Shown: one piece after another, positions 3,264 to 32,392 of the stretch | Layout: each line of letters starts with the position of its first letter | Numbering within the stretch: position 1 is the first letter of the stretch | Assembly (NCBI GenBank): GCA_022571845.1 | Contig: JACZXB010000009.1 | Location: 62,001-126,000 of the forward strand | DNA: 64,000 nt | Direction of reading: 5' to 3' | Source: Candidatus Zixiibacteriota bacterium | GTDB taxonomy: Bacteria > Zixibacteria > MSB-5A5 > GN15 > FEB-12 | Position numbers and translations under genes: made by a program | Notes under the pieces: generated by a model | What the model saw: only the letters and a program-made list of their open reading frames with translations | What the model was told of the DNA's origin: nothing | The model's database searches: none

Positions 3264-4259
3264 TTAGAAACTGGCTATCATAGTAAAGTACTGGTTACTA
3301 TTGAATACTTCGGTATCGGTCCAGGAGTATTCAAATGTCAGTCTGGCATCTTCGCCAAGGTCGACAGAAACTCCTGCACCCAGCGAGAAGCCATATAGGA
3401 AGTTTTCATTGCTTGAATAAATATAGCCGGCTCTGAGTGAATACCGCTCGTCATAGACATATTCTAACCCTCCATTGAAATTGTCATTGGAAAGGTTATT
3501 TGAGCGGAAGTTGTATGACATAGTGGCTGAGTTGAGCCCTTCATTCAGGAAATTATAGGCCAGACCTAAATCGAACGATGTTGGCAGTTCTGCGCCGGCA
3601 TCACTTGAAGCTACTGGGCGATTGTTATCATCTAATCTCTCAAACCCACTGCCCGAAAACTTAATGTCTGGACCAAAATTGCGGATTGCCAACCCGAGTG
3701 TCAGTCCATAAATTCTGGGCTCATAAGTAAATCCAAAGTCAAATGACAGTCCGCTAGCTGATACTTCGAAAATATCCTCGCGAATATATCTTCCGGTCAT
3801 ACCGAAATTGACCTGGGTGCTGACAGCTTTGGCAAAGGTCAGGCCGATTACTGCCATGGTCGGCTCGAAAACGCTGCCGGTTCCATCCGGAAATGCTTCT
3901 GTAGTCTCTTCAATTTTGCCTGCACTGACAACTTTTACCGAAAGTGCCACGGCGCCGAAGTCTTCTAGCTGCTTGCCAATAGCAAAATATGTAACATCTA
4001 TATCAGCGATATAGGGCAGGAGAGAGGCCATTGCTTCGGTGCCTTCCAGCCAGGCAAGTCCGGCGGGGTTCCAGTATATAGCGTCAATGCCATAGGAGTT
4101 GGCTACTACTGCTCCTCCCATCGCTGTGCCACGGGAGCCGACCGATATCAAAAGCTCGGCCGCACCCGCTGTACCGATACGGTTTTCGTTGCCTGCCATT
4201 ACTGACTGAAAGGTCAATAAGAGCAGAGCAACTATAAGCAAAAATGTTTTGTTTCTCAT
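3264..4259 (-). CDS. PorV/PorQ-family outer-membrane protein (cassette A)
   Basis: A 331-residue outer-membrane beta-barrel of the UPF0164/PorV-PorQ family. A signal peptide (residues 1-22, ending VMA) is followed by the family hallmark: NRIGTAGAAELLISVGSRG, then MGGAVVANSYGIDAIYWNPAGLA. Alternating beta strands continue to a C-terminal Phe (MIASF), the usual BAM signal. PorV proteins in Bacteroidetes act as the outer-membrane receptor/shuttle of type IX secretion. The SD (GAGGATAG) lies about 9 bases before the ATG. It is last in a three-gene operon after the receptor and the long secreted protein, 18 bases downstream of the latter. A paralogue sits in the same position in cassette B. Family call is strong; its role with the neighbouring cargo is inference. 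Confidence 0.85.
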   Translation of the reverse strand: MRNKTFLLIVALLLLTFQSVMAGNENRIGTAGAAELLISVGSRGTAMGGAVVANSYGIDAIYWNPAGLAWLEGTEAMASLLPYIADIDVTYFAIGKQLEDFGAVALSVKVVSAGKIEETTEAFPDGTGSVFEPTMAVIGLTFAKAVSTQVNFGMTGRYIREDIFEVSASGLSFDFGFTYEPRIYGLTLGLAIRNFGPDIKFSGSGFERLDDNNRPVASSDAGAELPTSFDLGLAYNFLNEGLNSATMSYNFRSNNLSNDNFNGGLEYVYDERYSLRAGYIYSSNENFLYGFSLGAGVSVDLGEDARLTFEYSWTDTEVFNSNQYFTMIASF

Positions 4260-4277
4260 TTTATCTATCCTCTTTAA

Positions 4278-7200
4278 TTAGTATTGACCTAAAATTTCAA
4301 TTTCAGTAAATATGGCCATCTTGCCGATTTTCTGACCAAAACCAGGAGCATCCACAACGTAAATATAAATGCCTGATGCAACCGGCACATTAAAATCGTT
4401 GGCAATGTTCCACGCTATTTCTGACGTCAAGTCATCTTTCTCTAATGAGGTTATGAAGTCACCTGCCAAATTGTATATTGAAATAGTGCATTTCTCAGGT
4501 AGATTTCTGAACTTCAATACTCGATTAATCTTACTCGCATCATATCCTCCAAAAAGGTAATATGGATTCGGTGCGACATTGATGTCGGCTAAGAAATCTT
4601 CTCCAGAAGTAGAAACCGATGGCGCCGGAGCAGAAAATGTAAATACGTCGGTTGGTGTGTTGATGTGGTTTGAAAGAATCAAGAATTCGTCTTCTCCTGT
4701 ACCTCCAGGAGAAAACGGCACTACACCCCTTCTGTTAACCGTTAACCACCAAAGAATAGGCATTGAATCACCGATTGCGTCGCCCTGATAGGCCGCATTA
4801 GGAGTAGTCGAATAATCTTCGAGGAAAATCCAGAGCCACTCTCTGGGTCCGCTACCGGCAGTGTTGTCGTAATTACCAAACGAACCCGGGAACCACTTTC
4901 CATCAACTCTACCATCGACCTGATTGTTTTCCAAGTATCCAACTGCCAACCTCTGGGGAGGATTGACGTCGACATTCCAAGCTGATAAAGGTACACTCTG
5001 TGCAAAGTCCTGATAACGATAACCTCCAAGTGTCACGTCAATCATAAATGGCACGAATCCAGGTTGTGCGGGTGGACTCGTAAAGGCACGGCCATACCTA
5101 TATGCATACGAAACATTAACGTCATTTGGGTCAAACGCAAAGCTGCCGAGCGTATCAGAACCATCAAGAGTGTCTACTTGAGCTAATATAAGTAAGACAC
5201 TAACGTGCGAGCTTGGCGGCATTGGTGTATAAGATCCGAAAACATCGCCAGGTCCGCCCCAGCCTATGGCTCCATTGAAGCCTTCCCAGCCAAATCCGTC
5301 TGCATTGGCCCAGGTAAAGCGTCTTGTTCCATTGGGTATGTCCCAGTCTCTCATTCCTGGTACTGGGGGACCAGTGACCTTGAGCAGAAATCCATCGACG
5401 ATCTCATAATCATTATCTCCCGTCTGATTAAACTGCTTTACAACGAGCATCGTACTTTGTGTCACGTTTTCGAGATTCCAATAGACTGCATTTGTAAAAG
5501 TTGATTCTGGTCCCATGCCAGTATCTACCACTGTCACTAATACAGTATCGAAGAAAGTCACCATGTAAGAGTCCCCGGTTAAAGCCTCCGGGTCAACAAT
5601 GAATGGAATTACGGTACCATCCGATATTCCGGATACATGGGTAACGGCAAGTGTATCATTAAATACGTTACCTAATTCAATACCCGCAACCGGACGTTGA
5701 GGAGTTGCCGAAACGATAGTCGCTGATGTCAGCGTTTTTGGTGTTGCCACCGGATCACTGTTATATGAATAAGCCTCTACCTTAAAGAAATACTCAGTGG
5801 AATTGTTCAAAGGTCCAGCATTTATAATATCGTTACTTATTCCTATGAATCTCGTTACCCCATTGTCCGATCCGAATTTAATAGCACGTTGTTCGATAAC
5901 GCCGGTAAGTGGATCCAGTACTTCGTCGATAATAATGGCTACGCCATCGACGATGTCGAAATTAGCAATGCGAGTCCATGGATCGGTTGCAGCTGCTGAT
6001 ATTCCCTGAAAAACGGAATAACCCTGAAAAGGGTAATCACCCGGGCTAACTTCAGAAGTTTTTATCCATTCAAGCACAACTCTTCCGTCAAGCTGATGAA
6101 CTTCAACTGCTGGCGCTGCGGGTGGTTGCAATAGTTGGAAGTTGTTGTCATAGGCTTGCTGTGCGAACTTATCATTAAATTTCAAAACTGAGATAGATGA
6201 CAGTCTGTCTCCGCCTTGTCCCACTATTACAGCCGCCAGAATCTCGGTGCTGTCACCGGGAGCAAAATTAAAAGGACCAGTCGTAAGCATGTATCTTCTA
6301 TCTGAGGAGGCAAAATCAAGGTCGCCTACGCCAGTTGTCGGGTCACCGGGGCCGTAAAACTTGGTACCATTGGCGAGCGGTGCTCCATTCAGAGAAGCAT
6401 CCAGGCCGTTCATATACTGGTAGGTCCAGGTCAAGTTTTGCGGGTCAGTACCATTGATGTATTTGTTAAACGAAGTCATTCCCATATTCAGGTAGCCGAC
6501 AAAAGTAGTGTCCCACATCCTGGCAGTGTCTGCGTTATCACCTGTAAAAATCAGGGGACCCTGGAAGAAGTCAAATCCGACTGCCGGGGGATCACTGCCA
6601 TAATCGCTGTCGTTTCCTTCATTATAGCAATAACCAAGTGATAGTACTGTATCAGATCCAACAAGGTCATCACCGGCGTTACCCAAGTCAGGATCAGCCC
6701 AAAGCGAGACAAACATATCAGCTAGAGTAAGTGTACCCTTATTGTAAATCTGATATTTTACAAAAACTATGTTTGCCAGGGCATCAGTTCGATCAAATGC
6801 GAAAGTAGTCTGGCGAATTTCCAATCCCATACCAATCGCACTTGAAGCATCGTTAGTGTGCGGCGCCGGATTGGCGTCATTAAAGACAGACCAGAGCATC
6901 TGGTCACCCAGCATTGCGGGATTTCCATTAGAATCCACCGGAGCGCCGTCAGCTACCGGCCATTCTGTGTAATCCTGATTTGGATTACTTGCCAGACTGT
7001 CGGCATGCAGCTTGTAAACTCTATCCGCTGGATCCGTATCAGAGCCGGGATCGAAAGTGTTGCCGATCATCGGGCCGGGATACCAATCGTCGGCGTATTC
7101 TGCAATAGTTACCAGAGTATCGCCAGTAGCAACATCTACTGCTCCCACCCAGATCCCCGCTGCAAATATCACCGAAGTATTATTCGATTGATCCGCTATG

Positions 7201-7439
7201 TCTTCCAAGCTCGTGAACGGGAAATAAAGCCCGTCGTTTTTGCCTAACAGGCCACCCTGATCGTATGCGAAAGAGCCCTTGTTGGTTACAAACATCAAGA
7301 TCTGGTTCACGTCAATCCAGGTGCCGGTGTCTCTAATAAGAGACTCCTTCTGACTGAGCTTGCCGCCCAGTGGCGCCAGCGCAAAAGCCGACACCGCTAA
7401 GGCAAGCAAACTCAATACTATAATTGCTTTTTGTTTCAT
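4278..7439 (-). CDS. Large secreted protein with T9SS-like C-terminal sorting tail (cassette A)
   Basis: A 1053-residue protein with an N-terminal signal peptide (MKQKAIIVLSLLALAVSAFA). The ATG at 7439 is preferred because the SD GAGGA lies 8 bases upstream; upstream in-frame ATGs at 7445 and 7454 sit too close to or inside that SD. The long N-terminal half has repeated Asp/Gly-rich beta segments (WVGAVDVATGDTLV, FVKYQIYNKGTL) with no enzyme motif I recognise. A fibronectin III-like segment starts near residue 440. From about 950 there is a tail (VAPNPYYLFGG, FRNLPEKCTISIYNLAG, VASGIYIY, GKMAIF) that resembles FlgD-Ig/Por-secretion tails. It lies between the receptor and the PorV gene, 24 bases after the receptor stop, so it is the likely cargo of the adjacent PorV. 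The substrate is unknown. Confidence 0.8.
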   Translation of the reverse strand: MKQKAIIVLSLLALAVSAFALAPLGGKLSQKESLIRDTGTWIDVNQILMFVTNKGSFAYDQGGLLGKNDGLYFPFTSLEDIADQSNNTSVIFAAGIWVGAVDVATGDTLVTIAEYADDWYPGPMIGNTFDPGSDTDPADRVYKLHADSLASNPNQDYTEWPVADGAPVDSNGNPAMLGDQMLWSVFNDANPAPHTNDASSAIGMGLEIRQTTFAFDRTDALANIVFVKYQIYNKGTLTLADMFVSLWADPDLGNAGDDLVGSDTVLSLGYCYNEGNDSDYGSDPPAVGFDFFQGPLIFTGDNADTARMWDTTFVGYLNMGMTSFNKYINGTDPQNLTWTYQYMNGLDASLNGAPLANGTKFYGPGDPTTGVGDLDFASSDRRYMLTTGPFNFAPGDSTEILAAVIVGQGGDRLSSISVLKFNDKFAQQAYDNNFQLLQPPAAPAVEVHQLDGRVVLEWIKTSEVSPGDYPFQGYSVFQGISAAATDPWTRIANFDIVDGVAIIIDEVLDPLTGVIEQRAIKFGSDNGVTRFIGISNDIINAGPLNNSTEYFFKVEAYSYNSDPVATPKTLTSATIVSATPQRPVAGIELGNVFNDTLAVTHVSGISDGTVIPFIVDPEALTGDSYMVTFFDTVLVTVVDTGMGPESTFTNAVYWNLENVTQSTMLVVKQFNQTGDNDYEIVDGFLLKVTGPPVPGMRDWDIPNGTRRFTWANADGFGWEGFNGAIGWGGPGDVFGSYTPMPPSSHVSVLLILAQVDTLDGSDTLGSFAFDPNDVNVSYAYRYGRAFTSPPAQPGFVPFMIDVTLGGYRYQDFAQSVPLSAWNVDVNPPQRLAVGYLENNQVDGRVDGKWFPGSFGNYDNTAGSGPREWLWIFLEDYSTTPNAAYQGDAIGDSMPILWWLTVNRRGVVPFSPGGTGEDEFLILSNHINTPTDVFTFSAPAPSVSTSGEDFLADINVAPNPYYLFGGYDASKINRVLKFRNLPEKCTISIYNLAGDFITSLEKDDLTSEIAWNIANDFNVPVASGIYIYVVDAPGFGQKIGKMAIFTEIEILGQY

Positions 7440-7463
7440 TTTCATTTTCCTCATCGTTTTATC

Positions 7464-10430
7464 TTAAAATGATGCTCTTAATCCAAAGTATATCTGCCGC
7501 GGATTGGCATAGTTTAGAGGGTGATTCTGAGCAATTTGGTATTTCTCTTCACCCGTTAAGCCGGTGGCATCGTCAACGTCACTGGTATTATTTACGAAAG
7601 TCTGACCTTCGGGAGTTTCCAGCCAGCCGGTCGAATTGGGTCGGCCGCTGCCTTCCCAAACCTGAACGACATTGTCTCTGTCAAGGAGATTCTTTATCCA
7701 TAAATACGGAGCAATCTTGAAGTTGCCCACGTTAAATGATTTCTCGGCTTTCAAGTCTATCGATAATGTCCAGGGTCCTGTCTCAGAATTTCGCGTATCC
7801 AAAGCTATTGGAGCAAAAGCACCAAGAGTTGCTTCGTTCAATATCTGGACGGGGGTATAAGGAAGACCACTGGATGCTATCAGCAGCACGTTGACGCCGA
7901 AGTTTTCGAGCGGATAGATATCGCCGAAACGGGGCCCTTCCTGTGCGCTGTATCTGAGGTCAAAGTTTCCGATAAACTTGTGAGTCTGGTCAAACGCCAG
8001 CGGGGCAGTCTGTCTGGGAGCATTGGCATTTACCCAGGCAACGTTACCCTGTGAATTTGAATAAGAACCGGTACCTGTAGCAAACGACAAGGTGTACTTA
8101 AAGTCCAAGGCTATCTGGCTGGTTCTTCTGGTAGTGAGATGGAATTCAAGTCCCTTAATTGTGCCATAGTCCGAATTGCGATAAGTGGCAAATGAAGTGG
8201 GTTGCGACGGCTGATTAAAGACCTGAATGAGATTGGTAATATCTTTGTAGAAAATGTTTACGTCGATGGAAGTGTTGTCCCCCATCTGACGGGTTATACC
8301 AATTTCATAAGCGGTTGTTTTCGGCGGCTCCAGATTTGGATTACCGAATGAAACATAGTAACCACCGGTATTAATCTTGAAGTTCAGGAAGTCATAGCCC
8401 ACATACAGATTCTGCAACTCCGGTCGTTGGTAAAACCGGCCGTAGCTCAATCTCATCTGAGTCTTATCAGAAATCGGGAAAGCCACGCCTAAGCGGGGAG
8501 AAAGTCTGGTGAATTTCTCGCTCTCTTCGGTATCACCCAAATCGAGAACTGAGGCAAGGCTGTCAAGGCCTGGATTGCCAGGGAATCCTAATGAATCAGG
8601 ATTTAAAGGCAAGGCCGGGTTACGCAGTCGGAGCGCCTTGTAATCAAAGTAGTCAAATCTCAGGCCGCCAGTAATAATCAAGCCCTCATATTCCAGGCGG
8701 TCCTGCAAGAAGAAACCAATATCAATGGGGTGCTTGGTTTCATTCTGCCAGTCATCATCGTCAGACTCTTCCCCAAAAATGTCGTAGCCATAACGGTTAA
8801 CATCCTGGAAGCCACCGGTGCCGACACCTTTATATACGGATACCGGGAAGAAATGTTGATAAAACCTAAGTGTATGGCGATTGAATTCGAAGCCGCCTTT
8901 GATAGTGTGCTCAGATGTTATTTCGCTGGTAATCTGCCCCTTGAAGCCAACATAGGCCGACTTTCTCCTGAGATAATCATCCCAGACGTGTGCTTCATCT
9001 CCATCAGCAACAAATGTTCTGTCAAGTCCATCAGGAGTGCCAAGAGAGTCGCCAGCAATAGTTACGTACGTGACAGGCGTAATAATACGGTCACCAGTAA
9101 CAGAATCAATCTCGATATTATCAAACGACCTGAAAAGGTTTTCAACATCGTTTCTGGGATTGCCACCGGGACGCCCATAGGCCCAGATGTCTTCCCGATA
9201 AATCCCATCACCCCGGAATCTCTCTGTTACAAAATATGTTCCGCTGAAAGTCCAGAAAGTGCTGGCGCTCATGGTGTGCGTCAGCTTGGCATTAAAGCTG
9301 GTATTTTTGTCTTTATAGTAGGGCATATGCTCGGCATTAAAGAGGTATGAATGGGTATATCCACGCCATTCATCATTTGAGCCGGTTCCGGAAAGCTGTA
9401 ACTGCAAGTTGTCAGTAAACTGATAGTCAATCTTTCCCTGATACGCCCAGCCGTCAAGGCTGTTATTAGGAAGTCTGACAGAAGCGGAAGGCAGCACATC
9501 ATCAGTAATTGCTGAGGGCATTCTGTCTCCGTGGTAGCGACGCTCAACCGAGCCGAAGAAAAAGCCGTCTTCGACTCCTGGAATCGGTCCGCTCAGGTCG
9601 AGCGAATACCAGTTCTGGTCATAGGTGTGCTTGAAGCTGTCACCCCAATTATCGGTTACAACTTCAGCGTTACCGTGGTATTCATTTCCGCCGGACATGG
9701 TCGTCACATTTACAATACCCGACGCTACGTGCCCGTATTCGGCCGGGAATCCGCCGGAAGTAATTGATATTTCCTTGATAGCGTTGTTACTGATATTAGT
9801 AGTCGATGTCCCAGAAAGCGGGTCCTGCTGTGAAAAGCCATCTACATAATAGGCAACTTCGCTGGGTCGACCGCCCCTGATATTTAATTCAGGACTGTTG
9901 CTGGCTTCACGCGCTCCTCTAAGACCTCTTGGTCCGAGGTTTGGTGTGACCTTTACTACACCTGTCTGAATTCCAACAACGTCTGCAAAACCTCGTGTCG
10001 GTAATGCCAAAAGCTCATCGCGTCTGACAATACTTATCGAGGCTACTTTGTCTCTAATAACCAGCGGCGTTTCTGCCGTGACGCGAATCACATCACCCAG
10101 TTCTTCAGTCGTCGGGGCGACTGTGTGATCCTGAAACGAGGCCAGGTCAACAGAGACCAATACGTTACTAACTTCGAGTGTCGTAAAACCGACTGAACTT
10201 ACACGTATTGTATAAGTGCCAACCGGAACGTTCAAAATGGTATACTTACCATTTGCGTCAGTTACCCCGCCAAGCGATGTGCCTACGACAGACACGTTGG
10301 CGCCGGGTACTGCATCGCCTGTTTCAGAGCTTGTTATGACACCCGTGATGCGGCCTGATACCGCTGAGAACACAGTGCCTGAAACAAGGCAGATAAAAAC
10401 TGTGAGTACTACGAGTAATTTAGATTTCAT
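7464..10430 (-). CDS. TonB-dependent receptor with carboxypeptidase-regulatory-like domain (cassette A)
   Basis: A 988-residue outer-membrane receptor. The ATG at 10430 (MKSKLLVV) is chosen because an AGGAGG SD precedes it and a signal peptide follows directly; the longer frame from 10463 would include the SD. Order: signal peptide (1-22), CarboxypepD_reg-like domain (about 24-105, GRITGVITSSETGDAVPGA and PVGTYTIRVSSVGF), plug (about 115-250, LNIRGGRPSEVAYYVDGF and ITSGGFPAEYG), then a 22-strand-type barrel with typical repeats (RLSPRLGVAFPISDKTQMRL, NPNLEPPKTTAYEIG) ending GLRASF with terminal Phe. The family imports or binds ligands with TonB energy; no tonB or exbBD gene is visible here. 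First gene of cassette A. Confidence 0.9.
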   Translation of the reverse strand: MKSKLLVVLTVFICLVSGTVFSAVSGRITGVITSSETGDAVPGANVSVVGTSLGGVTDANGKYTILNVPVGTYTIRVSSVGFTTLEVSNVLVSVDLASFQDHTVAPTTEELGDVIRVTAETPLVIRDKVASISIVRRDELLALPTRGFADVVGIQTGVVKVTPNLGPRGLRGAREASNSPELNIRGGRPSEVAYYVDGFSQQDPLSGTSTTNISNNAIKEISITSGGFPAEYGHVASGIVNVTTMSGGNEYHGNAEVVTDNWGDSFKHTYDQNWYSLDLSGPIPGVEDGFFFGSVERRYHGDRMPSAITDDVLPSASVRLPNNSLDGWAYQGKIDYQFTDNLQLQLSGTGSNDEWRGYTHSYLFNAEHMPYYKDKNTSFNAKLTHTMSASTFWTFSGTYFVTERFRGDGIYREDIWAYGRPGGNPRNDVENLFRSFDNIEIDSVTGDRIITPVTYVTIAGDSLGTPDGLDRTFVADGDEAHVWDDYLRRKSAYVGFKGQITSEITSEHTIKGGFEFNRHTLRFYQHFFPVSVYKGVGTGGFQDVNRYGYDIFGEESDDDDWQNETKHPIDIGFFLQDRLEYEGLIITGGLRFDYFDYKALRLRNPALPLNPDSLGFPGNPGLDSLASVLDLGDTEESEKFTRLSPRLGVAFPISDKTQMRLSYGRFYQRPELQNLYVGYDFLNFKINTGGYYVSFGNPNLEPPKTTAYEIGITRQMGDNTSIDVNIFYKDITNLIQVFNQPSQPTSFATYRNSDYGTIKGLEFHLTTRRTSQIALDFKYTLSFATGTGSYSNSQGNVAWVNANAPRQTAPLAFDQTHKFIGNFDLRYSAQEGPRFGDIYPLENFGVNVLLIASSGLPYTPVQILNEATLGAFAPIALDTRNSETGPWTLSIDLKAEKSFNVGNFKIAPYLWIKNLLDRDNVVQVWEGSGRPNSTGWLETPEGQTFVNNTSDVDDATGLTGEEKYQIAQNHPLNYANPRQIYFGLRASF

Positions 10431-10602
10431 TACTCCTCCTTGTAATGTTGTATGATTTCGCAACTGTTTTGTTTATCATATTTTCAATCAGGAAAGCTAT
10501 TCTAATTCTATCAAATAGGCAAGGCCATTCTCCGTCATCGGCATTGACCGCAAAACTTGCTCAAAAAGTCCCAAAAAGGCCGAAAACAGTCAACAAAAAC
10601 AG

Positions 10603-22014: not shown

Positions 22015-22583
22015 ACAACTCAGAAATTTTGAAGATATTTGAAGATTCCGGGGCGCTTTTGAGCGGGCATTTCAAGCTGACCTCGGGCAGACACTCCGAC
22101 ATCTACTATGAAAAATTCACGCTACTCAAAAACCCCAAGGTTTGCACAAAAATCTGCAAAATGATAGCAGATGAGTTTAGTGACAAGAATATCCAGACAA
22201 TAGTAGGACCTACCTTGGGAGGAGTGATAATAGCCTACGAAGTTGCCCGGTATCTGGGAATTGAAGCAGTCTATTCTGAACCGGGGGAGGCCGGCAGAAC
22301 TCTCAAACGTGGCTTTGAAATAAGCCCCGATGAAAAAGTTTTGATTGTAGATGATATTTTAACTACCGGCCGGTCGATTAAAGAAATGATAGAACTTTGT
22401 AAATCCAGAAATGTCGATATTTGCGGAATAGGATTGATACTGGACCGCTCGGGCGGGCAAATAAAATTTGATTATCCGCAGTATTCAGTGGGTTCAATTG
22501 ATGCAGTTTCTTGGTCGCCGGAAGAATGTCCGATGTGCAAAAAAGATGAGCCTCTCACTCAAAGAGGCAGCAGAGTTCATTAA
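22011..22583 (+). CDS. pyrE: Orotate phosphoribosyltransferase
   Basis: 190 residues. It joins orotate and PRPP to give orotidine 5'-phosphate in pyrimidine synthesis. Motifs: FKLTSGRHSDIYYEKF at the N terminus, IVGPTLGGVIIAYEVA, and the PRPP loop VLIVDDILTTGRSI. The C-terminal ECPMCKKDEPLTQRGSR is typical of this subtype. The start overlaps acpS by 4 bases. The gene converges with the response-regulator gene, overlapping it by 4 bases. Confidence 0.95.
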   Translation: MNNSEILKIFEDSGALLSGHFKLTSGRHSDIYYEKFTLLKNPKVCTKICKMIADEFSDKNIQTIVGPTLGGVIIAYEVARYLGIEAVYSEPGEAGRTLKRGFEISPDEKVLIVDDILTTGRSIKEMIELCKSRNVDICGIGLILDRSGGQIKFDYPQYSVGSIDAVSWSPEECPMCKKDEPLTQRGSRVH

Positions 22584-22963
22584 GATGCTTTAGCGTCGCT
22601 CAGGCAGTCAGCTACTGTCTGCATCAGTTCTTTAATGCTGAAAGGTTTAGACAAAAAAGCGCTGGCGCCATGGTTGGCTGATTTGCTGACAGAGTATAAA
22701 CTCGAGTAGCCTGTAATAACAATGACTTTGGCCGTGGGGTCTGATTGTACGGCAAATTTAACAACTTCGTCACCGGAAACACGCGGCATTTTAAGGTCTG
22801 TTATGACCAGGTCATAACTTTGCTCTTTTAGCTTGTCAATAGCCTCGTCACCGTCGCTAGCGGTGCTGACTTCAAAATCATCATTTAAGACTTCGAACAA
22901 AAAGTCTCTGATTATTTCTTCGTCATCTACTACCAGAACGGTTTTCTTATCCATTTTGCTCAT
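22580..22963 (-). CDS. Response regulator, receiver domain only
   Basis: 127 residues with a complete receiver: acidic pair VVDDEE (13-14), phosphoacceptor Asp56 (LVITDLKMP), Thr84 (VITGYSS) and Lys106 (LSKPFS). There is no output domain, so it probably works in a phosphorelay or by protein contact rather than by binding DNA. It follows the histidine kinase gene by 12 bases and is its likely partner. An alternative start lies 9 bases downstream. Confidence 0.9.
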   Translation of the reverse strand: MSKMDKKTVLVVDDEEIIRDFLFEVLNDDFEVSTASDGDEAIDKLKEQSYDLVITDLKMPRVSGDEVVKFAVQSDPTAKVIVITGYSSLYSVSKSANHGASAFLSKPFSIKELMQTVADCLSDAKAS

Positions 22964-22975
22964 TTTCCAATTCGT

Positions 22976-24655
22976 TCAGCCAGGAAAGTTAGGGGCTTTC
23001 TGCTTATTCAGGTTATCGGCTTCCAGAGTCGGTTTCTGAAGAGGTAGAACTATGATGAAGGTAGTTCCTTTTTCTTCATTAGAAGTCACCTTTATTTCTC
23101 CTCCGTGATTTCTTATTATACCGTAACTTACGGATAATCCCAGGCCGGTTCCTTTGCCCAGTTCTTTAGTAGTAAAGAAGGGCTCGAATATTCTCTTCAT
23201 ATTCTCTGAAGGGATTCCGCAGCCGTTATCAATAAACATAATTTCAATAGCTCCACCAAAATCGCCAAGAGCAGGGCTTGACTGAGTTTTTATCTTTATG
23301 CAGTTGCCGGATTCGGATGCATGCATTGCATTTATTATCAGATTCGTAAATACCTGCTGCAGCTGTCCGGCATTTCCGTTAATTTCGGGGATACTTTCAT
23401 TTAATTCAAGTTTTAGTTCAATCTGGTGCATATTGAGCTGGTGCTCGATAAACGTCACAGTATCTTTGATAATATGATTAATGCTGATTCGTTCAAATTC
23501 TATTTTCTCGGGCAATCTTGAGAATTTCAACAAATTCTGTACTATATTCTTACAGCGACGCGCCTGCTTTTCTATTTCTGACAGATAACGCAGGTAATCT
23601 TGATGTTGTTTTTCATCAATCTCAGTAGCCCCGGTATGGCTCATTTTCTCGAGGGCAATTTGTGCATAACCGAGAATACCGCCCAGAGGATTGTTAAGCT
23701 CGTGGGCCACTCCTGCCGCCAGCTGACCTATGGCACCCATTTTTTCGGATTGCAGTAACTGTGCCTGAGCTTCTTCCAGTTCTATAGTCCTTTGTACAAT
23801 CTTGTGTTCAAGATTTCTGTTATATTCTTCAATTTCGTTTCGGGACTGTCTCAATGAGTCCACCATCTTGTTAAATGTATCAGCCAGATGTCCTATTTCA
23901 TCACCCGAATGAATATCAACGCTCTGTGTCAGATCGCCGCGGCTGATCCGGTCCGTTGCAGTAAGCAATACCCGTATCGGTCTGGTTACAAATCGTACCA
24001 GAAAGGCGATAGTCAATATACCAAAAAGCAGGATAGCCGCTGTTACCAACAAGGCCGCCTTTTGAGCTTCTGTTATGGCCTTATTAACGTTGGCTAATGA
24101 TAGTACCAGTTTTATTGATCCAACTTTTTCGATAACTAGATCATCCCTGTTTGCTTTGTCATAGCCAGCGGTCATACCCAGCAGCTCTCTGTCCAGTGAT
24201 TCTCTCCGGGTTGTAATCGGATAATTGAGAACAATGAATTCATCACCGTTATTTAACCTGACCTGGTAATCATGATGCGCCAAATCATCTGTAAAGGCCG
24301 TCTTTATTCTCTTGCTGTCAGCAATAGCATTATTATTCCATTCACCTGCTTCGGACAGCAGCCTGTTATCAATTGAGTAAATAGCGGCATAGCGCACTAC
24401 ATTAAAGCCGTGCAAGAGCGTAAGCATTTCATCGAGTTCATATTGTGATTCCAGAATTACTCCGGTCTCGGCATTAACAGCCAGCATTCTAATCATTGTT
24501 TCGCCGGCGGTCTCCAGTTCGCGTCTGATTCCGTGTGCTTGTCTGTTGATCATATAGGTACTGGTGACCAAACTGCTAATTAAGAGAATAACAACAATTG
24601 GAAGGAGCACTTTGGTGCGCAGCTTGGCGTTGTAAAACCATTTACGGAGGTTCAT
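22976..24655 (-). CDS. Membrane sensor histidine kinase (HAMP-HisKA-HATPase)
   Basis: 559 residues. Membrane helix about 15-36, a periplasmic sensor region to about 195, a second helix about 200-222, HAMP about 223-275 (RPIRVLLTATDRISRGDL), a coiled coil, then HisKA with phospho-acceptor His318 (AAGVAHELNNPLGGILGY). The ATPase domain follows, with N box (QVFTNLIINAMHA), G1 (DNGCGIP) and G2 (GKGTGLGLSVSYGI). Its ATG overlaps the stop of the upstream binding-protein gene (ATGA). The binding protein therefore probably supplies the signal, inferred from gene order. The cognate receiver follows. Confidence 0.93.
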   Translation of the reverse strand: MNLRKWFYNAKLRTKVLLPIVVILLISSLVTSTYMINRQAHGIRRELETAGETMIRMLAVNAETGVILESQYELDEMLTLLHGFNVVRYAAIYSIDNRLLSEAGEWNNNAIADSKRIKTAFTDDLAHHDYQVRLNNGDEFIVLNYPITTRRESLDRELLGMTAGYDKANRDDLVIEKVGSIKLVLSLANVNKAITEAQKAALLVTAAILLFGILTIAFLVRFVTRPIRVLLTATDRISRGDLTQSVDIHSGDEIGHLADTFNKMVDSLRQSRNEIEEYNRNLEHKIVQRTIELEEAQAQLLQSEKMGAIGQLAAGVAHELNNPLGGILGYAQIALEKMSHTGATEIDEKQHQDYLRYLSEIEKQARRCKNIVQNLLKFSRLPEKIEFERISINHIIKDTVTFIEHQLNMHQIELKLELNESIPEINGNAGQLQQVFTNLIINAMHASESGNCIKIKTQSSPALGDFGGAIEIMFIDNGCGIPSENMKRIFEPFFTTKELGKGTGLGLSVSYGIIRNHGGEIKVTSNEEKGTTFIIVLPLQKPTLEADNLNKQKAPNFPG

Positions 24656-25626
24656 TTGTAAACCTCCCGGGCTACCGCTATAAGCTCAGGCGGAATTTTG
24701 ATTTTGATGTAATTGGCAGTTTTTTGGTTGTAGTGAAAATAGATTACGTCGCTTGAAGTCACTCTGATTTCTGAAGCATCGGCTCCATCTATCAGCTTAT
24801 TTACGATTTCTCCGGCTTGAAATCCTATCGCTTTGTAATCAAAGTCCAGAGCAAACAAGGCACCAGACTCCACCACGTGGCGGGAAAATCCCATGAACGG
24901 AATCATTTTGCGTAAAGTCGTTTTTAAAATGTATCTGGTTGACTGTGGACCAAAAAGTTCCGGATCAGCAACTGACCAAAGACCTTGAGTTATATTTGCC
25001 AGTGAATCGAGCGCTTTGGGGAGTTCCTTAGGTTCCTTGATTAACACCGGCACCAGGGTCATGCCAAGTTCGCGCGCCACGATTTTTGCAGAAGGTATAA
25101 GCGGGGCGGTACTTTCTGTATAGAGGACGCCGATTTTTTCTAACTTAGGTAATATCTGTTTGAAATATGAGAATTGAACATTTAGAGGAATATCCAGTGA
25201 AGCGCCGGTAATATTGTTTCCAGTGCCTGATGAACTGTTAACAAAACCTGAAAGCGCCGGATATTTTACGCTCGAAAATACAATGGGAATTTTCTTAAAG
25301 TTTCTCTTGGCGAACTCAGTCGCCGATGAGCCTACGGTTAGTATGATGTCCGTTTTATTAGCCAGACAACTGTTGACAACCGCAGTATCTTTCAGAATAC
25401 CACGTTTGATAACGTATTTGTCAAACTGTGCTTCGGGGTGTTCCCGTTTGATAATGTTCTTGGCGCCACTTAAAGTCCTGGCCGTAGAAGTAAGGCTGTC
25501 GCTTACAAAAATTGCAATTCTGGTTCGGCTTTTCTGTGGAAAAGCATGTTCCGGAGAAAGGACAGTAAACGCAATTATAGCCCAACTGATTAATAGAAAT
25601 AGTGTCCTGTTCATGCCAAATTTCAT
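24652..25626 (-). CDS. ABC_sub_bind-type periplasmic substrate-binding protein
   Basis: 324 residues, with a signal peptide (about 1-30, SPEHAFPQ) and the two-lobed fold of the ABC_sub_bind/TrpX-like family: TRIAIFVSDSLTSTARTL, DIILTVGSSATEFAKRN, IPIVFSSVKYPALSGFV, NITGASLDIPLNVQFSYF and IGVLYTESTAPLIPSAKIVA. In classical use such proteins feed an importer, but no permease or ATPase gene is here. Instead it is first in an operon with a histidine kinase and a receiver, so it is probably the ligand-sensing arm. An internal ATG at residue 5 is an alternative start. It is divergent from the cassette B receptor. Confidence 0.85.
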   Translation of the reverse strand: MKFGMNRTLFLLISWAIIAFTVLSPEHAFPQKSRTRIAIFVSDSLTSTARTLSGAKNIIKREHPEAQFDKYVIKRGILKDTAVVNSCLANKTDIILTVGSSATEFAKRNFKKIPIVFSSVKYPALSGFVNSSSGTGNNITGASLDIPLNVQFSYFKQILPKLEKIGVLYTESTAPLIPSAKIVARELGMTLVPVLIKEPKELPKALDSLANITQGLWSVADPELFGPQSTRYILKTTLRKMIPFMGFSRHVVESGALFALDFDYKAIGFQAGEIVNKLIDGADASEIRVTSSDVIYFHYNQKTANYIKIKIPPELIAVAREVYK

Positions 25627-25879: not shown

Positions 25880-28606
25880 ATGCCGATAAAAAGATTTATG
25901 ACTAATAGGAATGTCATATATGATAGAGACAAGTTTTTTCAAAAGGTAAAATTCTTGAGTCGTTTGACTAAAATATTACCGCTGCTGATTTCGTTACTAT
26001 TAGTGTTTTTCAGCGCAGCATTAGTCCAGGCGGGAGTTGTCGGAAAAATTTCTGGTCTGGTCGAAGATAGCAAGACCGGAAAACCGATAGTCGGAGCGAC
26101 AGTAAGAATTAACGGAACTTCGCTGGTGACTAAAACCGATGTAGACGGGGAATTTTTCGTTATCAATCTGCCGGTAGGAAAGTACGATATTTCCGTCAGC
26201 AGTGTCGGTTACGAAAGAATAGTTCATAAGAATGTTCTGGTTTTAATAGACCTTACGACACCAGTCAATTTTGAAATCAATCAATCTACTCTTCGGTTGC
26301 AAGAAGAAGTAGTTGTAACGGCAGAAAATCCGGTAATACAAAAAGATTTGACAGCTTCAAAAGTAATTTTTACGGCTGATCATTTAAAACTTCTCCCAAA
26401 TATCATTACAGTGAAATCCGTATTGATCAATTATCCCGGCGTAGTGGTCGATCGTGACAACGACCTGCATATAAGAGGCGGTCGCGCCGGACAAGTAGCC
26501 TATTATTTTGACGGCTTTTCGGTACAGGATCCATTTATATCCCAGTCGGGAATCAAGATTATGCCCAGCTCTTTAGAGCAGCTGTCTTTGACTTCCGGTG
26601 GTTATACGGCGGAGTATGGCGAGGCTCTTTCCGGTGTTGTCAGCGCTATTACTCGTGAGGGCGGCGAGTCTTATCACGGCGGATTTAAAATGTATGAAGG
26701 CCTGACGCATCCTTATAATGTACGAAGTGGAGAATGGGCCGGCCTAAACAGAGTTGGCAATCGTGCTACCAGCTTCAATCTGTCAGGTCCGATTCCGGGC
26801 GCAGGTTTTTCGCGTAACACTTTTTTTGTAGCCGGCGAATATTTGCATGAGCCATCATATTTGCCTCATAATGGTTCGGTCTCTTATACAGGTACGACCA
26901 AATTGTCGCTGCAGCCCAGCCAGAGATTCAAAATCAAAGCGAATTTCACTTTCCATGATGAATCCGGCGAAGAGTATATACACCGCGACGTTAACGGAGT
27001 CTCCTACGACTTCAATCTCGACGGACTGCCCTCGTTTAAAAAGAACTCGTTTCTGGCCGGTATCAGCGGATTATATTCTGTCAGTGAAAGATTGATTATA
27101 ACAAACTCTTTTAACTATTTCATGACCAATTACAAATCAGCTCCGGGAGCTCTGTTTGACTTGTACTGGGATCAGTGGCCAGGCTATACCGAAGGGACCA
27201 TTGATGATGATAATTATCTCGGCAATAGAGATTTTGCCGATGTCCTTCAGGCCACAGGATTTACAGTTGGCAACGACTTTAAACCTACATACAGATGGCG
27301 GGAGTCAATCTACAGCGCCTATAAGTTAAATGTTATCGGTCAAGTCAACAAGACCAATCAGATAAAAGCGGGCTTTGAGTGGAGAAAATACAAGATAGAC
27401 TGGGATTACAAGCTATTTTTTAACGACAATCCTTATGGCGAAAAATATAATAGCAGTCCCAGCTATATCTCCGGTTTTGTGCAGGATAAGATGGAATATA
27501 AAGAATTCATCATAAATCTGGGCCTGCGAGTTGATTATCGTGATGCTGATATTTCTTATAATGTTAACCCCGGCGGCTTTACCCCGGTTTATAAACGAGC
27601 TGACTCCAAAACACGCTGGGCTCCACGTCTTGGAATTTCATTCCCGATATCCTCAAGATCTAAAATGCATTTCAACTACGGACTGTTTTATCAAGAGCCT
27701 AGTTTCAGATATCTTTATACTAATTTGGAAGGGGATGTTTCAACAGGTTATCCGCTATTGGGTAATCCTGATCTTAATCCCGAGCAGACAACTTCATACG
27801 AACTGGGCCTTGACCATTTGATTGACAGAAATTTAAGGCTGAAAGTAGTTACCTATTTCAAAGATATCAACGATCTGGTAACTACACGTTCTTCATTCCA
27901 GGTAGCAGGCTTACCGGTCACTCACTTTGACAATGATGATTATGGTTCTGTAAAAGGCATCGACTTGACTATTGAAAAGTTTCCGGGCGGCGGATATTTG
28001 AGCGGATCTATCTCTTATAGCTATCAGATTGCAACCGGTATCGGCTCTACGGCGCTTGAACCTTACTATACCTATATCACTTCAGTAACTGACACCCTGG
28101 CCCCGGTCTCCGAATATCCATTAGATTTTGACCAGCGCCATACAGTTATAGCGCTTATGTCATTTCGGGCTCCAAGAAACTGGGATGCCAAGTTTCTTGG
28201 TATGCAAATGCCCGGCGCCTGGAATCTTAGCCTTGTCGGAAGTTATGGTTCGGGTCTGCCATACACTTCAACGGATAATCTGGGCGCCAGATTGGGTGAA
28301 CGCAACGAAGCCAGACTGCCTTCGAATTACCGGGTCGACATGAGGTTTAATAAAGACTTCGCACTTGGCGCCTTTAATTCGCGCCGTATGAGTTTCTTTG
28401 TGGAAGTAGACAATCTCTTTAATAAGAGAAATATTCTGGGTGTTTACACCAATACCGGCCGGCCGGATAACGACGGTAATGCCATCGGCGCCGGGTTTAC
28501 TCTGAATGCCAACGAGATAAGCTTTTATGACAGGTTATACGACCATGACCCGCAGAATTTTTCACCGCCGCGGACTATTAGAACCGGTATAGAGTTTAGT
28601 TTTTAA
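25880..28606 (+). CDS. TonB-dependent receptor with carboxypeptidase-regulatory-like domain (cassette B)
   Basis: 908 residues. The signal/anchor segment is LPLLISLLLVFFSAALVQA (about 35-53); the 30 residues before it are charged, so a downstream TTG start is possible. CarboxypepD_reg-like domain about 55-140 (GKISGLVEDSKTGKPIVGA, PVGKYDISVSSVGY), plug about 145-260 (DLHIRGGRAGQVAYYFDGF, LTSGGYTAEYG), then a barrel (RWAPRLGISFPISSRSKMHF, NPDLNPEQTTSYELG) ending GIEFSF with terminal Phe. Paralogue of the cassette A receptor at 7464-10430 and first gene of the second receptor-cargo-PorV set. Outer-membrane uptake or binding; ligand unknown. Confidence 0.9.
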   Translation: MPIKRFMTNRNVIYDRDKFFQKVKFLSRLTKILPLLISLLLVFFSAALVQAGVVGKISGLVEDSKTGKPIVGATVRINGTSLVTKTDVDGEFFVINLPVGKYDISVSSVGYERIVHKNVLVLIDLTTPVNFEINQSTLRLQEEVVVTAENPVIQKDLTASKVIFTADHLKLLPNIITVKSVLINYPGVVVDRDNDLHIRGGRAGQVAYYFDGFSVQDPFISQSGIKIMPSSLEQLSLTSGGYTAEYGEALSGVVSAITREGGESYHGGFKMYEGLTHPYNVRSGEWAGLNRVGNRATSFNLSGPIPGAGFSRNTFFVAGEYLHEPSYLPHNGSVSYTGTTKLSLQPSQRFKIKANFTFHDESGEEYIHRDVNGVSYDFNLDGLPSFKKNSFLAGISGLYSVSERLIITNSFNYFMTNYKSAPGALFDLYWDQWPGYTEGTIDDDNYLGNRDFADVLQATGFTVGNDFKPTYRWRESIYSAYKLNVIGQVNKTNQIKAGFEWRKYKIDWDYKLFFNDNPYGEKYNSSPSYISGFVQDKMEYKEFIINLGLRVDYRDADISYNVNPGGFTPVYKRADSKTRWAPRLGISFPISSRSKMHFNYGLFYQEPSFRYLYTNLEGDVSTGYPLLGNPDLNPEQTTSYELGLDHLIDRNLRLKVVTYFKDINDLVTTRSSFQVAGLPVTHFDNDDYGSVKGIDLTIEKFPGGGYLSGSISYSYQIATGIGSTALEPYYTYITSVTDTLAPVSEYPLDFDQRHTVIALMSFRAPRNWDAKFLGMQMPGAWNLSLVGSYGSGLPYTSTDNLGARLGERNEARLPSNYRVDMRFNKDFALGAFNSRRMSFFVEVDNLFNKRNILGVYTNTGRPDNDGNAIGAGFTLNANEISFYDRLYDHDPQNFSPPRTIRTGIEFSF

Positions 28607-28621
28607 TAGGAGTTAAAGCAG

Positions 28622-31381: not shown

Positions 31382-31390
31382 AGGTTGAAA

Positions 31391-32392
31391 GTGAAACGCC
31401 TGTTTGTCATAATTGTTGTTGTCCAAATGCTGGCCATGAGCGCAAGTGCCAGCGAGTCTCGAATCGGCGCCAGCGGTGCTCAATTCTTAAAGATTGGTGT
31501 TGGCTCCCGTTATCAGGGACTTGGTGAAGCCTCAACGGCAGTAGTAAACGATGTTTACAGTATGTACTGGAATCCGGCCGGGCTCAGCGAGGTCGAGCAA
31601 TCCTCAGTAAGTTTTACGAATGTTGACTGGTTGCTGGATATCAAATTGAACTACTTTGCTTTCGCCAAGAATTTTGAAGATGTCGGAGTATTCGGAATTT
31701 CTGCGACTATGTTGTCGATGGGCGACCAGGAAGTAACTACTTTTGCCGATCAGGGCGGTACCGGTGAAACATTTACAGCTTCATCATATGCTGTTGGAAT
31801 TACTTATGCCAAGCATTTGACTACCAGGTTTTCGTTCGGGGTGACCGCCAAGTATATTGGCGAAAGAATATATAACGAAAGTTCGCAGGGCTTTGCCTTT
31901 GATTTTGGAACATTGCTTTATACCGGGTTCAGGAATCTTCGCCTTGGTATGAGTATCACCAATATGGGGCCGGAGCTCAAATTTACAGGTCCGGACTTAA
32001 CTGTCGGCTATGATCCTCTTGACGGCAGCGGCGCCAATAACGCGGTCGGGGCGGAGCTGAAAACCACACCTTATGACCTTCCCTTAACTTTCCGTTTTGG
32101 GGCGGCCTATGATTTTGATTTTGGTGATAACAGCATTCTTACAGTAGCATCGGAGCTAAAACATCCTAACGACTTTTCGCAGCAGGGCGCCATGGGTTTT
32201 GAGTACGCCTATTCCGAGAAGTTTTTTCTGCGCTCAGGCTATAAGATAAATTATGAAGAACAGGGTTTAACTTTCGGTGGCGGCCTGTCTACTAACATTT
32301 CAAACGATACTAAAGTGATCATAGATTATGCCTGGCAGGAATTTGGCAGGCTGCAGTCTACTCATCGCTTTTCCGTTGGCTTTACTTTTTGA
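31391..32392 (+). CDS. PorV/PorQ-family outer-membrane protein (cassette B)
   Basis: 333 residues from the GTG that has GAGG 6 bases upstream; a TTG 6 bases earlier is the alternative. Signal peptide RLFVIIVVVQMLAMSASA, then the family motif SRIGASGAQFLKIGVGSRY and YSMYWNPAGLSEVE, continuing as beta strands to VGFTF with terminal Phe. Closest relative in the window is the cassette A PorV at 3264-4259, in the same relative position. A strong terminator follows, closing the operon. Confidence 0.85.
   Translation: MKRLFVIIVVVQMLAMSASASESRIGASGAQFLKIGVGSRYQGLGEASTAVVNDVYSMYWNPAGLSEVEQSSVSFTNVDWLLDIKLNYFAFAKNFEDVGVFGISATMLSMGDQEVTTFADQGGTGETFTASSYAVGITYAKHLTTRFSFGVTAKYIGERIYNESSQGFAFDFGTLLYTGFRNLRLGMSITNMGPELKFTGPDLTVGYDPLDGSGANNAVGAELKTTPYDLPLTFRFGAAYDFDFGDNSILTVASELKHPNDFSQQGAMGFEYAYSEKFFLRSGYKINYEEQGLTFGGGLSTNISNDTKVIIDYAWQEFGRLQSTHRFSVGFTF

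Follow-up and report, generated by a model that had tools for sequence, protein, structure and literature searches.

What brings a TonB-dependent receptor, a long secreted protein and an outer-membrane barrel of the PorV/PorQ family together in one gene set, and what might the three do jointly? The 64-kb window (the whole stretch of DNA that was analysed, 64,000 nt) holds two such three-gene sets, copies A and B, each of which the first-pass annotation had read as a possible self-contained unit for surface display and ligand capture with a dedicated PorV shuttle.

Layout and conservation of the cassettes

All six ORFs are found at their annotated positions (Table 1), in the same order and co-directional in both copies, with gaps of 9 bp (receptor/cargo) and 18 bp (cargo/barrel) in copy A and of 15 and 3 bp, respectively, in copy B. 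Matches to the Pfam models CarbopepD_reg_2, Plug and TonB_dep_Rec confirm the first gene as a CarboxypepD_reg-TonB receptor; the plug and 22-strand barrel domains (PF07715 and PF00593) score over cut-off in both receptors, and neither reaches the SusC subfamily model TIGR04056 (63 and 65 bits for A and B; cut-off 368). The ORF of receptor A opens at a TTG at 10463, a possible start, with an ATG at 10430.

Table 1. Features of the two cassettes and of the genes flanking copy B.
Feature	Coordinates	Strand	Evidence and remarks
Copy A cassette	3264-10430	-	ORFs and profile matches
PorV/PorQ-family outer-membrane barrel A	3264..4259	-	NF033709, 173 bits (cut-off 90)
Secreted cargo A	4278..7454	-	1058 aa, Sec-type N-terminus; family common to copy B and other phyla
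CTD of cargo A	4281..4610	-	Cassette class, C-terminal extension after GKMAIF; HMM and Foldseek
Predicted beta-supersandwich of cargo A	6132..7319	-	Residues ~46-441; AlphaFold2, low overall confidence
TonB-dependent receptor A (CarboxypepD_reg, plug and barrel)	7464..10430	-	PF13715, PF07715 and PF00593 over cut-off
Response regulator receiver protein	22580..22963	-	PF00072; beside kinase
sCache-HAMP histidine kinase	22976..24655	-	Adjoins copy B; kept in relatives
ABC_sub_bind periplasmic protein	24652..25626	-	PF04392, 5.7e-34; divergent
Copy B cassette	25880-32392	+	ORFs and profile matches
TonB-dependent receptor B	25880..28606	+	Pfam; 28% identical to copy A
Secreted cargo B	28622..31381	+	919 aa; same family as cargo A
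Predicted beta-supersandwich of cargo B	28760..29854	+	Residues ~47-411; AlphaFold2, pLDDT 72.6 overall
CTD of cargo B	31049..31378	+	Cassette class; HMM; NF052228 (PorZ) 1.5e-8 on tail alone
PorV/PorQ-family barrel B	31385..32392	+	TTG start; NF033709, 223 bits (cut-off 90)
Secreted peptidase-MA-like protein	32515..34101	+	Weak PF13485; accessory, uncertain

The two copies lie less than 16 kb apart. They share 28% identity in the receptor, 25% in the cargo and 34% in the barrel and are, judging from their sequences, old paralogs; recent duplication of one set is ruled out by these values. Chance adjacency, or a recent duplication within one genome, could appeal to the short distance between the sets, but is hardly credible for copies that are merely 25–34% identical and that are each separately conserved across the phylum. 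Additionally, genome-wide profile searches detected nine TonB plug matches and about nine PorV-family genes, three of which come after a receptor directly or with one intervening gene. This linkage, together with the preservation of gene order and strand in dozens of other genomes, indicates that the layout is more than chance.

The receptor-cargo-barrel arrangement is kept across Zixibacteria families, and cassette loci also occur in at least six other phyla (Gemmatimonadota, Calditrichota, KSB1, Cloacimonadota, Fermentibacteria and Coatesbacteria). Of the three outcomes that the first-pass annotation had listed as refuting its reading, none was obtained: the adjacency recurs in other genomes, the tails are related to T9SS tails and T9SS core genes are present, as detailed below. 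Among 80 surveyed PorV loci, 23 are direct triads, 19 contain ExbB-ExbD-TonB genes inside the cassette and 18 combine receptor, barrel and lipoprotein with no intervening CTD (C-terminal signal domain) protein; the 18 loci without a receptor all reach a contig end, and a receptor lies upstream in every uncut one. Median gaps in the cassettes are 15 and 16 bp. The pairwise distances of PorV, cargo and receptor also agree, covarying with r 0.88–0.93 over 74 sets, much of which is explicable by vertical inheritance alone. Around copy B, the ABC_sub_bind gene stays beside the cassette in most sampled relatives, and the peptidase-MA-like gene comes after the barrel gene in relatives too. Within the part of the literature covered, we found neither a paper joining 'type IX secretion' with 'Zixibacteria' nor a description of a receptor-CTD-PorV cassette.

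Cargo tails and barrels

The T9SS-like tail ascribed to the long secreted protein was borne out: the cassette tails are homologous to the conventional T9SS tails of the same genome (hhalign 97.9%), and a PDB search with their profile found no match other than PorU (1.1e-4) and PorZ (0.026), although both cargos stay below the 23-bit cut-off of the type A CTD model TIGR04183, as whole proteins (16.6 and 19.1 bits for A and B) and as tails alone (19.3 and 22.3 bits). The type B model TIGR04131 gave no match at E ≤ 1 in either cargo, and the cassette tails are predicted to share a type A-like, Ig-like CTD fold. By their profiles, however, they are a CTD class distinct both from PorU tails and from the conventional type A ones. 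Tails A and B score 91 and 106 bits, respectively, with the cassette-tail HMM versus 30 and 27 with that of conventional tails, and the classification was correct for 34 of 34 Zixibacteria cassette tails and separated all held-out conventional (10/10) and PorU (15/15) tails. The profile of conventional tails, in contrast, also matches FlgD and the sorting-domain chain 8glj_D in the PDB. The C-terminal motif, which has been tied to PorV contact (PMC10202324), is of the GKFAIIK type in cassette tails versus KKMLLLK in conventional ones.

The CTDs of PorU and PorZ remain uncleaved (PMC11285876) and are retained by PorV and PorQ, respectively (PMC5562754, PMC10202324). Since the cassette tails form their own class, most like these uncleaved tails, docking of the cargo is probable, and the resemblance favours a stationary dock, as for PorZ on PorQ or PorU on PorV, over the shuttle originally annotated. 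The tail of cargo A has a Foldseek match to PorZ (5m11, 24% identity), but its likeness to PorZ is weak (16.6 bits with the PorZ model versus 19.3 with TIGR04183), and in a control conventional tails matched the PorZ and PorU models too, which weakened PorZ-likeness as a decisive mark; the contrast between PDB profiles alone was retained. Because of these two results, the cassette tails may still be cleaved. At least six further proteins of the genome carry a tail of the same class with no adjacent barrel, so the pairing of tail and barrel is not strictly one to one.

Cleavage would fit a conventional T9SS with paralogous shuttles, in which the barrel takes the cargo from SprA to PorU, the tail is removed, the protein is either released or attached to LPS, and the receptor is merely co-regulated. 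The T9SS core genes, which support our preferred reading as well, are present in the genome: PorU scores 632 bits (cut-off 420) and SprA/Sov 560 bits (cut-off 200), PorU was matched in 129 of 129 Zixibacteria genomes, and of 25 cassette genomes 22 contain SprA. PorV-type barrels are established shuttles of type A CTDs (PMC5562754), to which the cassette tails are homologous, and type B CTDs have specialised shuttles of the SprF type (PMC12618676). We nevertheless consider this explanation rather unlikely, since the tails are a separate class with a different PorV-contact motif (PMC10202324), they match nothing in the PDB except uncleaved CTDs, and the tight three-gene linkage with the receptor is left unexplained. 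The docking that we prefer would not make either set self-contained, as had been suggested, because each still needs the shared SprA translocon.

The barrels belong to the PorV/PorQ family (NF033709), as annotated, but not to the PorV equivalog (NF033710, 81 and 101 bits for A and B, cut-off 250); the PorQ equivalog is not reached either (NF033711, 77 and 99 bits, cut-off 220), and the PorP/SprF family TIGR03519 gave no match at E ≤ 1 with either barrel. In the PorV tree, receptor-linked barrels are separated (91/80) from the PorU-linked barrels and the remaining own paralogs, but long branches meet there and the deep order was not used as evidence. Elsewhere in the genome, a further set (copy D, L028) combines two PorV genes with the gene of a propeller-like CTD protein; considered as a PorZ-PorQ pair, it gave no PorZ match in a profile search.

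PorV, PorQ and FadL make up one superfamily, and barrel A also matches PF03349 (2.6e-8, over cut-off). The barrel could be a FadL-like channel that joins its two cassette partners in taking up a lipid-like or hydrophobic compound with no T9SS docking, and the receptor-barrel-lipoprotein sets free of CTD cargo would suit such a channel. This seems improbable, as the PorV/PorQ family model gives both barrels much higher scores, SprA co-occurs in 22 of the 25 cassette genomes and a CTD protein directly precedes the barrel in most sets; moreover, BamG, a FadL-family barrel of the same superphylum, docks a surface protein (PMC12578637). The 18 loci with no CTD protein between receptor and barrel do tie the barrel to the receptor and not to CTD cargo alone, implying a role beyond holding cargo.

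Cargo fold and a proposed uptake unit

Neither cargo reached a curated family in Pfam or NCBIfam, and no GH family was matched in Pfam. Nonetheless, both carry a predicted beta-supersandwich as in GH15, GH65, GH94 and GH116 enzymes. The model of cargo A, which is poor (pLDDT 50.8) and of which the core and tail alone were used, aligned with the N-domain of glucodextranase (1ug9) with Z 16.0 (3.5 Å over 221 residues), and that of cargo B with Z 20.8 (2.9 Å over 235 residues). Where these enzymes have a catalytic helical barrel, the predicted secondary structure of both cargos gave just short helices after the sandwich. The fibronectin III-like segment of the first-pass annotation agrees with Foldseek matches of cargo A to FN3 tandems, although the Pfam fn3 models found no match in the long secreted protein. 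The ligand capture proposed there is compatible with a glycan-enzyme-like fold, which may point to a glycan-class ligand, although a fold in common need not mean a ligand in common.

The three-gene unit is strongly supported by genomics and predicted folds; we infer export via SprA, stable docking, the ligand class and a lid-like placement. Our preferred reading, to which we give an even chance, is an uptake unit in which a TonB receptor works with a T9SS-exported, glycan-capturing partner docked on its own PorV/Q-like barrel. The receptor would be the energised importer. The long protein would use its Sec signal first; its C-terminal Ig-like signal domain would then give it access to the SprA translocon and passage across the outer membrane, after which the barrel encoded just downstream would receive it. 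Its tail would probably stay docked there, like PorZ on PorQ, and keep the FN3 and supersandwich domains next to the receptor or on top of it, for which the cargo would capture a carbohydrate-type ligand. SusD-like or BtuG-like lipoproteins carry out ligand capture for Bacteroidota receptors; this genome and 128 of the 129 Zixibacteria genomes lacked SusD (PF07980), the Bacteroides control being positive.

In Cloacimonadota and Fermentibacteria, the receptor and cargo genes are separated by ExbB-ExbD-ExbD-TonB genes, and the operon is tight. Rather than import a nutrient, receptor and ExbB-ExbD-TonB might energise the assembly of the surface protein or its release. We hold this to be very unlikely: TonB receptors with a CarboxypepD_reg-type domain architecture are, where known, importers or signal transducers, the T9SS is already served by its own motor, PorL-PorM, and cassettes A and B contain no Exb genes.

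Relation to known systems and significance

The proposed uptake unit resembles several known systems in part. Type B CTD proteins of Flavobacterium johnsoniae and Porphyromonas gingivalis are also encoded directly before their specific partner, a FadL-superfamily barrel that is a PorP/SprF-like shuttle (PMC12618676, PMC9143113), whereas the cassettes have a type A-like tail, a PorV/PorQ-family barrel and an operon led by a TonB receptor. In the T9SS attachment complex, PorZ-PorQ and PorU-PorV likewise place a CTD surface protein, with a similar tail, on a barrel of this family, as would the putative docking in the cassettes; the cassette cargo, however, is predicted to carry a supersandwich and an FN3 region where those proteins have propellers or a sortase, and its gene is linked to that of a TonB receptor. 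With SusCD/RagAB and BtuB-BtuG the cassettes share a TonB receptor encoded with a surface partner and proposed ligand capture, but that partner is a T9SS-type secreted protein and not a SusD-family lipoprotein, and the receptors fall short of the SusC cut-off. BamG-BamH of the Bacteroidota BAM complex also docks a surface protein on a FadL-family barrel (PMC12578637, PMC12611786), although BamH, a lipoprotein, forms part of an assembly machine, with neither a TonB receptor partner nor a CTD link.

More tentatively, and at somewhat below an even chance, we propose that a separate class of T9SS signal domains and their own PorV/PorQ-family barrels build docked, ligand-capturing lids for TonB receptors, as a T9SS-based SusCD counterpart in Zixibacteria and the six other phyla named above that would be older than, or parallel to, the lipoprotein system. 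To our knowledge, work on the T9SS is almost confined to Bacteroidota. The system was called exclusive to that phylum in a recent paper (PMC12618676). With two sets in one genome and many across phyla, the cassettes would offer naturally occurring pairs of cognate CTD and barrel, useful for studying how a PorV-type barrel chooses among shuttling, docking and cleavage. If the proposal is true, many uncultured phyla would equip their nutrient receptors with surface partners via the T9SS, which would explain the uptake of large ligands without SusD in those phyla.

Paired receptor, cargo and barrel genes

The genome (G000; 2.75 Mb, 98.8% complete) belongs to the phylum Zixibacteria, and all six genes that the first-pass annotation had assigned to two cassettes of the window, copies A and B, were found as described. 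Intergenic gaps are only 9 and 18 bp in copy A and 15 and 3 bp in copy B, so that both look like operons. Identity between the copies is 28% for the receptor, 25% for the long secreted protein (hereafter cargo) and 34% for the barrel; they are therefore old paralogs. Both receptors contain CarboxypepD_reg, Plug and TonB_dep_Rec domains and score far below the cut-off of the SusC model. The barrels belong to the PorV/PorQ family NF033709 (173 bits for PorV-A and 223 bits for PorV-B; cut-off 90), falling below the cut-offs of both the PorV and the PorQ equivalog models; by model searches they are not PorP/SprF barrels, and the cargo tails are not of type B. No Pfam or NCBIfam family exceeded its cut-off for either cargo, the tails alone giving weak matches to C-terminal signal domains (CTDs) for type IX secretion (T9SS). 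Elsewhere in the window, a KAP-family P-loop NTPase (PF07693, 2.7e-44) is encoded amid housekeeping genes, and an 853-aa product with 12 FG-GAP repeat stretches is probably another secreted protein.

Location of the cassette genes and other features (window positions unless a locus or contig is named)
Feature	Location	Strand
Copy A receptor	7464-10430	minus
Copy A secreted protein	4278-7454	minus
Copy A barrel	3264-4259	minus
Copy B receptor	25880-28606	plus
Copy B secreted protein	28622-31381	plus
Copy B barrel	31385-32392	plus
Copy A-type tail	4281-4610	
KAP-family NTPase	41834-43207	
FG-GAP protein	53543-56104	
PorU-adjacent PorV	L031:5978-8812 (G000:C1:475977-478811)	minus
Propeller-like CTD protein and two PorV/PorQ-family genes	L028:4585-10398 (G000:C6)	minus
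Cargo A paralogs	L025:7982-13511 (G000:C1)	minus
Three solo cassette-tail proteins	L026:5645-13619	
SusD match of genome G098	G098:C252:15200-15598	

Conservation and covariation of the cassette

The expected adjacency held in other genomes: in the stretches around PorV orthologs, the order and strand of receptor, cargo and barrel are kept for both copies across families and orders. About 91 of 132 Zixibacteria genomes have a PorV-B ortholog (best E <= 1e-80), and about 71 of 129 a PorV-A ortholog (best E <= 1e-60). Divergent genes upstream of copy B, also kept in relatives, code for an ABC_sub_bind protein, an sCache histidine kinase and response regulators, neighbours which suggest that expression of copy B is regulated.

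Comparison of the barrel alignment with 84,980 species genomes identified 80 loci from Zixibacteria, Gemmatimonadota, Cloacimonadota, Fermentibacteria, Calditrichota, KSB1, Coatesbacteria and unassigned bins, picked on barrel similarity alone, so that receptor linkage was not built in, although the barrels used as queries were themselves taken from cassettes. A same-strand receptor gene lies upstream in 60 of the 78 loci with a barrel called, the other 18 reaching a contig end first. Direct receptor-cargo-barrel sets account for 23 of these 60 loci; another 19 (L119, L129 and 17 others), from the two phyla Cloacimonadota and Fermentibacteria, separate the receptor from the cargo by genes for ExbB and ExbD, in most cases with another ExbD and TonB (checked with Pfam). 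The remaining 18 are receptor-barrel sets, mostly with a downstream gene for a protein of 700-790 aa that in many cases bears a lipobox; G000 has one set of this lipoprotein type (L029). The barrel can thus stay tied to the receptor even where no CTD cargo gene lies between the two. Across 57 direct sets, the median gaps are 15 and 16 bp. Two loci labelled Actinomycetota and ANME-2 archaeon (L131 and L128) hold cassettes closely resembling those of Calditrichota and Fermentibacteria, and their taxon labels are probably binning errors.

Pairwise distances of the three proteins correlate over 74 sets (r 0.88-0.93; maximum of 499 permutations, 0.11), with an identical nearest neighbour in 44-50 of the 74. 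Much of this correlation is accounted for by descent of each set as a whole from a common ancestor; it does show that the cassette sets duplicate and diverge as units, their parts being seldom exchanged.

T9SS core and the cassette tail class

Both SprA/Sov (560 bits against a cut-off of 200) and PorU (632 bits against 420) are encoded in G000. The TIGR04183 cut-off is exceeded by 25 other tails, and the copy B cargo, one additional match, falls just short of it. PorU was matched in all 129 Zixibacteria genomes searched, over the cut-off in 114, the remainder being mostly fragments. G000 has no SusD, and the same holds for 128 of the 129 genomes; the sole match, in a bin 74% complete (G098), represents contamination or lateral gain.

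In Zixibacteria, the PorV adjoining PorU (944 aa in G000) has a ~600-residue insertion after about barrel residue 75; in nearly all of 30 PorU loci (L205-L234) the neighbouring PorV likewise begins with these 70 N-terminal residues and then runs into long foreign sequence. Weak matches of the insert to LysM and propeller-like models point to a possible PorV-PorZ-like fusion. Another locus, L028, encodes a propeller-like CTD protein (869 aa, no match to the PorZ model) followed by two tandem PorV/PorQ-family genes, and may be a PorZ-PorQ counterpart.

Conventional tails of G000 contain NPFN (20/20) and mostly a KKMLLLK-like end (16/20); neither occurs in any of 74 cassette tails, which follow the pattern PNPY...NLPxxCTIRIxTLxGDL...WDLxSxNxQ...GKFAIIK (n=74). 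An HMM built on the tails of the barrel-scan loci (other phyla and some Zixibacteria) correctly placed all 34 cassette tails of a separate Zixibacteria group, among them those of copies A (91 bits against 30 for the next model) and B (106 bits against 27), and held-out conventional (10/10) and PorU (15/15) tails sorted to their own models. Judged by sequence, the cassette tails form a separate class that nonetheless shares homology with type A tails (hhalign 97.9%).

In the PDB, the cassette-tail profile matches PorU and PorZ only, and the conventional-tail profile matches FlgD and the sorting-domain chain 8glj_D as well. The CTDs of PorU and PorZ are not removed and keep both proteins on PorV and PorQ (PMC11285876, PMC5562754, PMC10202324), and protection of CTDs from cleavage by cognate PorV-like barrels has been suggested (PMC10202324). 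These matches therefore favour docking over shuttling for the cassette tail, a link weakened by the control, in which the PorZ and PorU models pick up conventional tails as well and the cargo A tail scores slightly better with TIGR04183. Copy A-type tails (L089-L104 and the window) have a conserved extension of ~10 residues, GKMAVFTEAEVLKIY-like, past the usual CTD end, possibly a specificity element. Locus L026 encodes three tandem solo proteins of the cassette-tail class, with no adjacent barrel or receptor.

Cargo fold and a putative capture mechanism

The AlphaFold2 model of cargo B (pLDDT 72.6, 31-sequence alignment) contains a predicted large beta-sandwich (residues 47-411) similar to the N-terminal domain of GH15 glucodextranase (1ug9; Z 20.8, 2.9 A, 235 residues) and to those of GH94, GH65 and GH116 enzymes. 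For cargo A the overall confidence of the model is low (pLDDT 50.8), yet its core shows the same similarity (1ug9; Z 16.0, 3.5 A, 221 residues). The model is not fully independent of that of cargo B, as their alignments share members; its modelled tail matches PorZ (24% identity). The helical catalytic barrel of the GH15, GH94, GH65 and GH116 enzymes is missing from both models. A sugar-associated fold without the catalytic part, in a secreted protein adjoining a TonB receptor, fits the ligand capture proposed in the first-pass annotation, with carbohydrate as the putative ligand class. In G000, locus L025 encodes cargo A paralogs whose N-terminal part is 50-66% identical to that of cargo A and whose C-terminus carries dockerin-like repeats in place of the CTD; a stop codon or frameshift interrupts one of them.

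Each ingredient is already known: cognate FadL-family partners from type B CTD proteins with SprF, docked CTDs from PorZ-PorQ and PorU-PorV, receptor-lid systems from SusCD and BtuB-BtuG, and a FadL-family dock from BamG. Their combination in one three-gene set, with a tail class of its own and over many phyla, did not appear in the literature searched, of partial coverage.

At least six G000 proteins carry the same tail class without an adjacent barrel, so that some barrels may serve several proteins; in F. johnsoniae, orphan type B proteins likewise involve one partner serving several proteins (PMC12618676). The cargo would be exported via Sec, pass through SprA, be handed to the neighbouring barrel and dock stably through its uncleaved tail; it would then capture glycan and hand it to the receptor.
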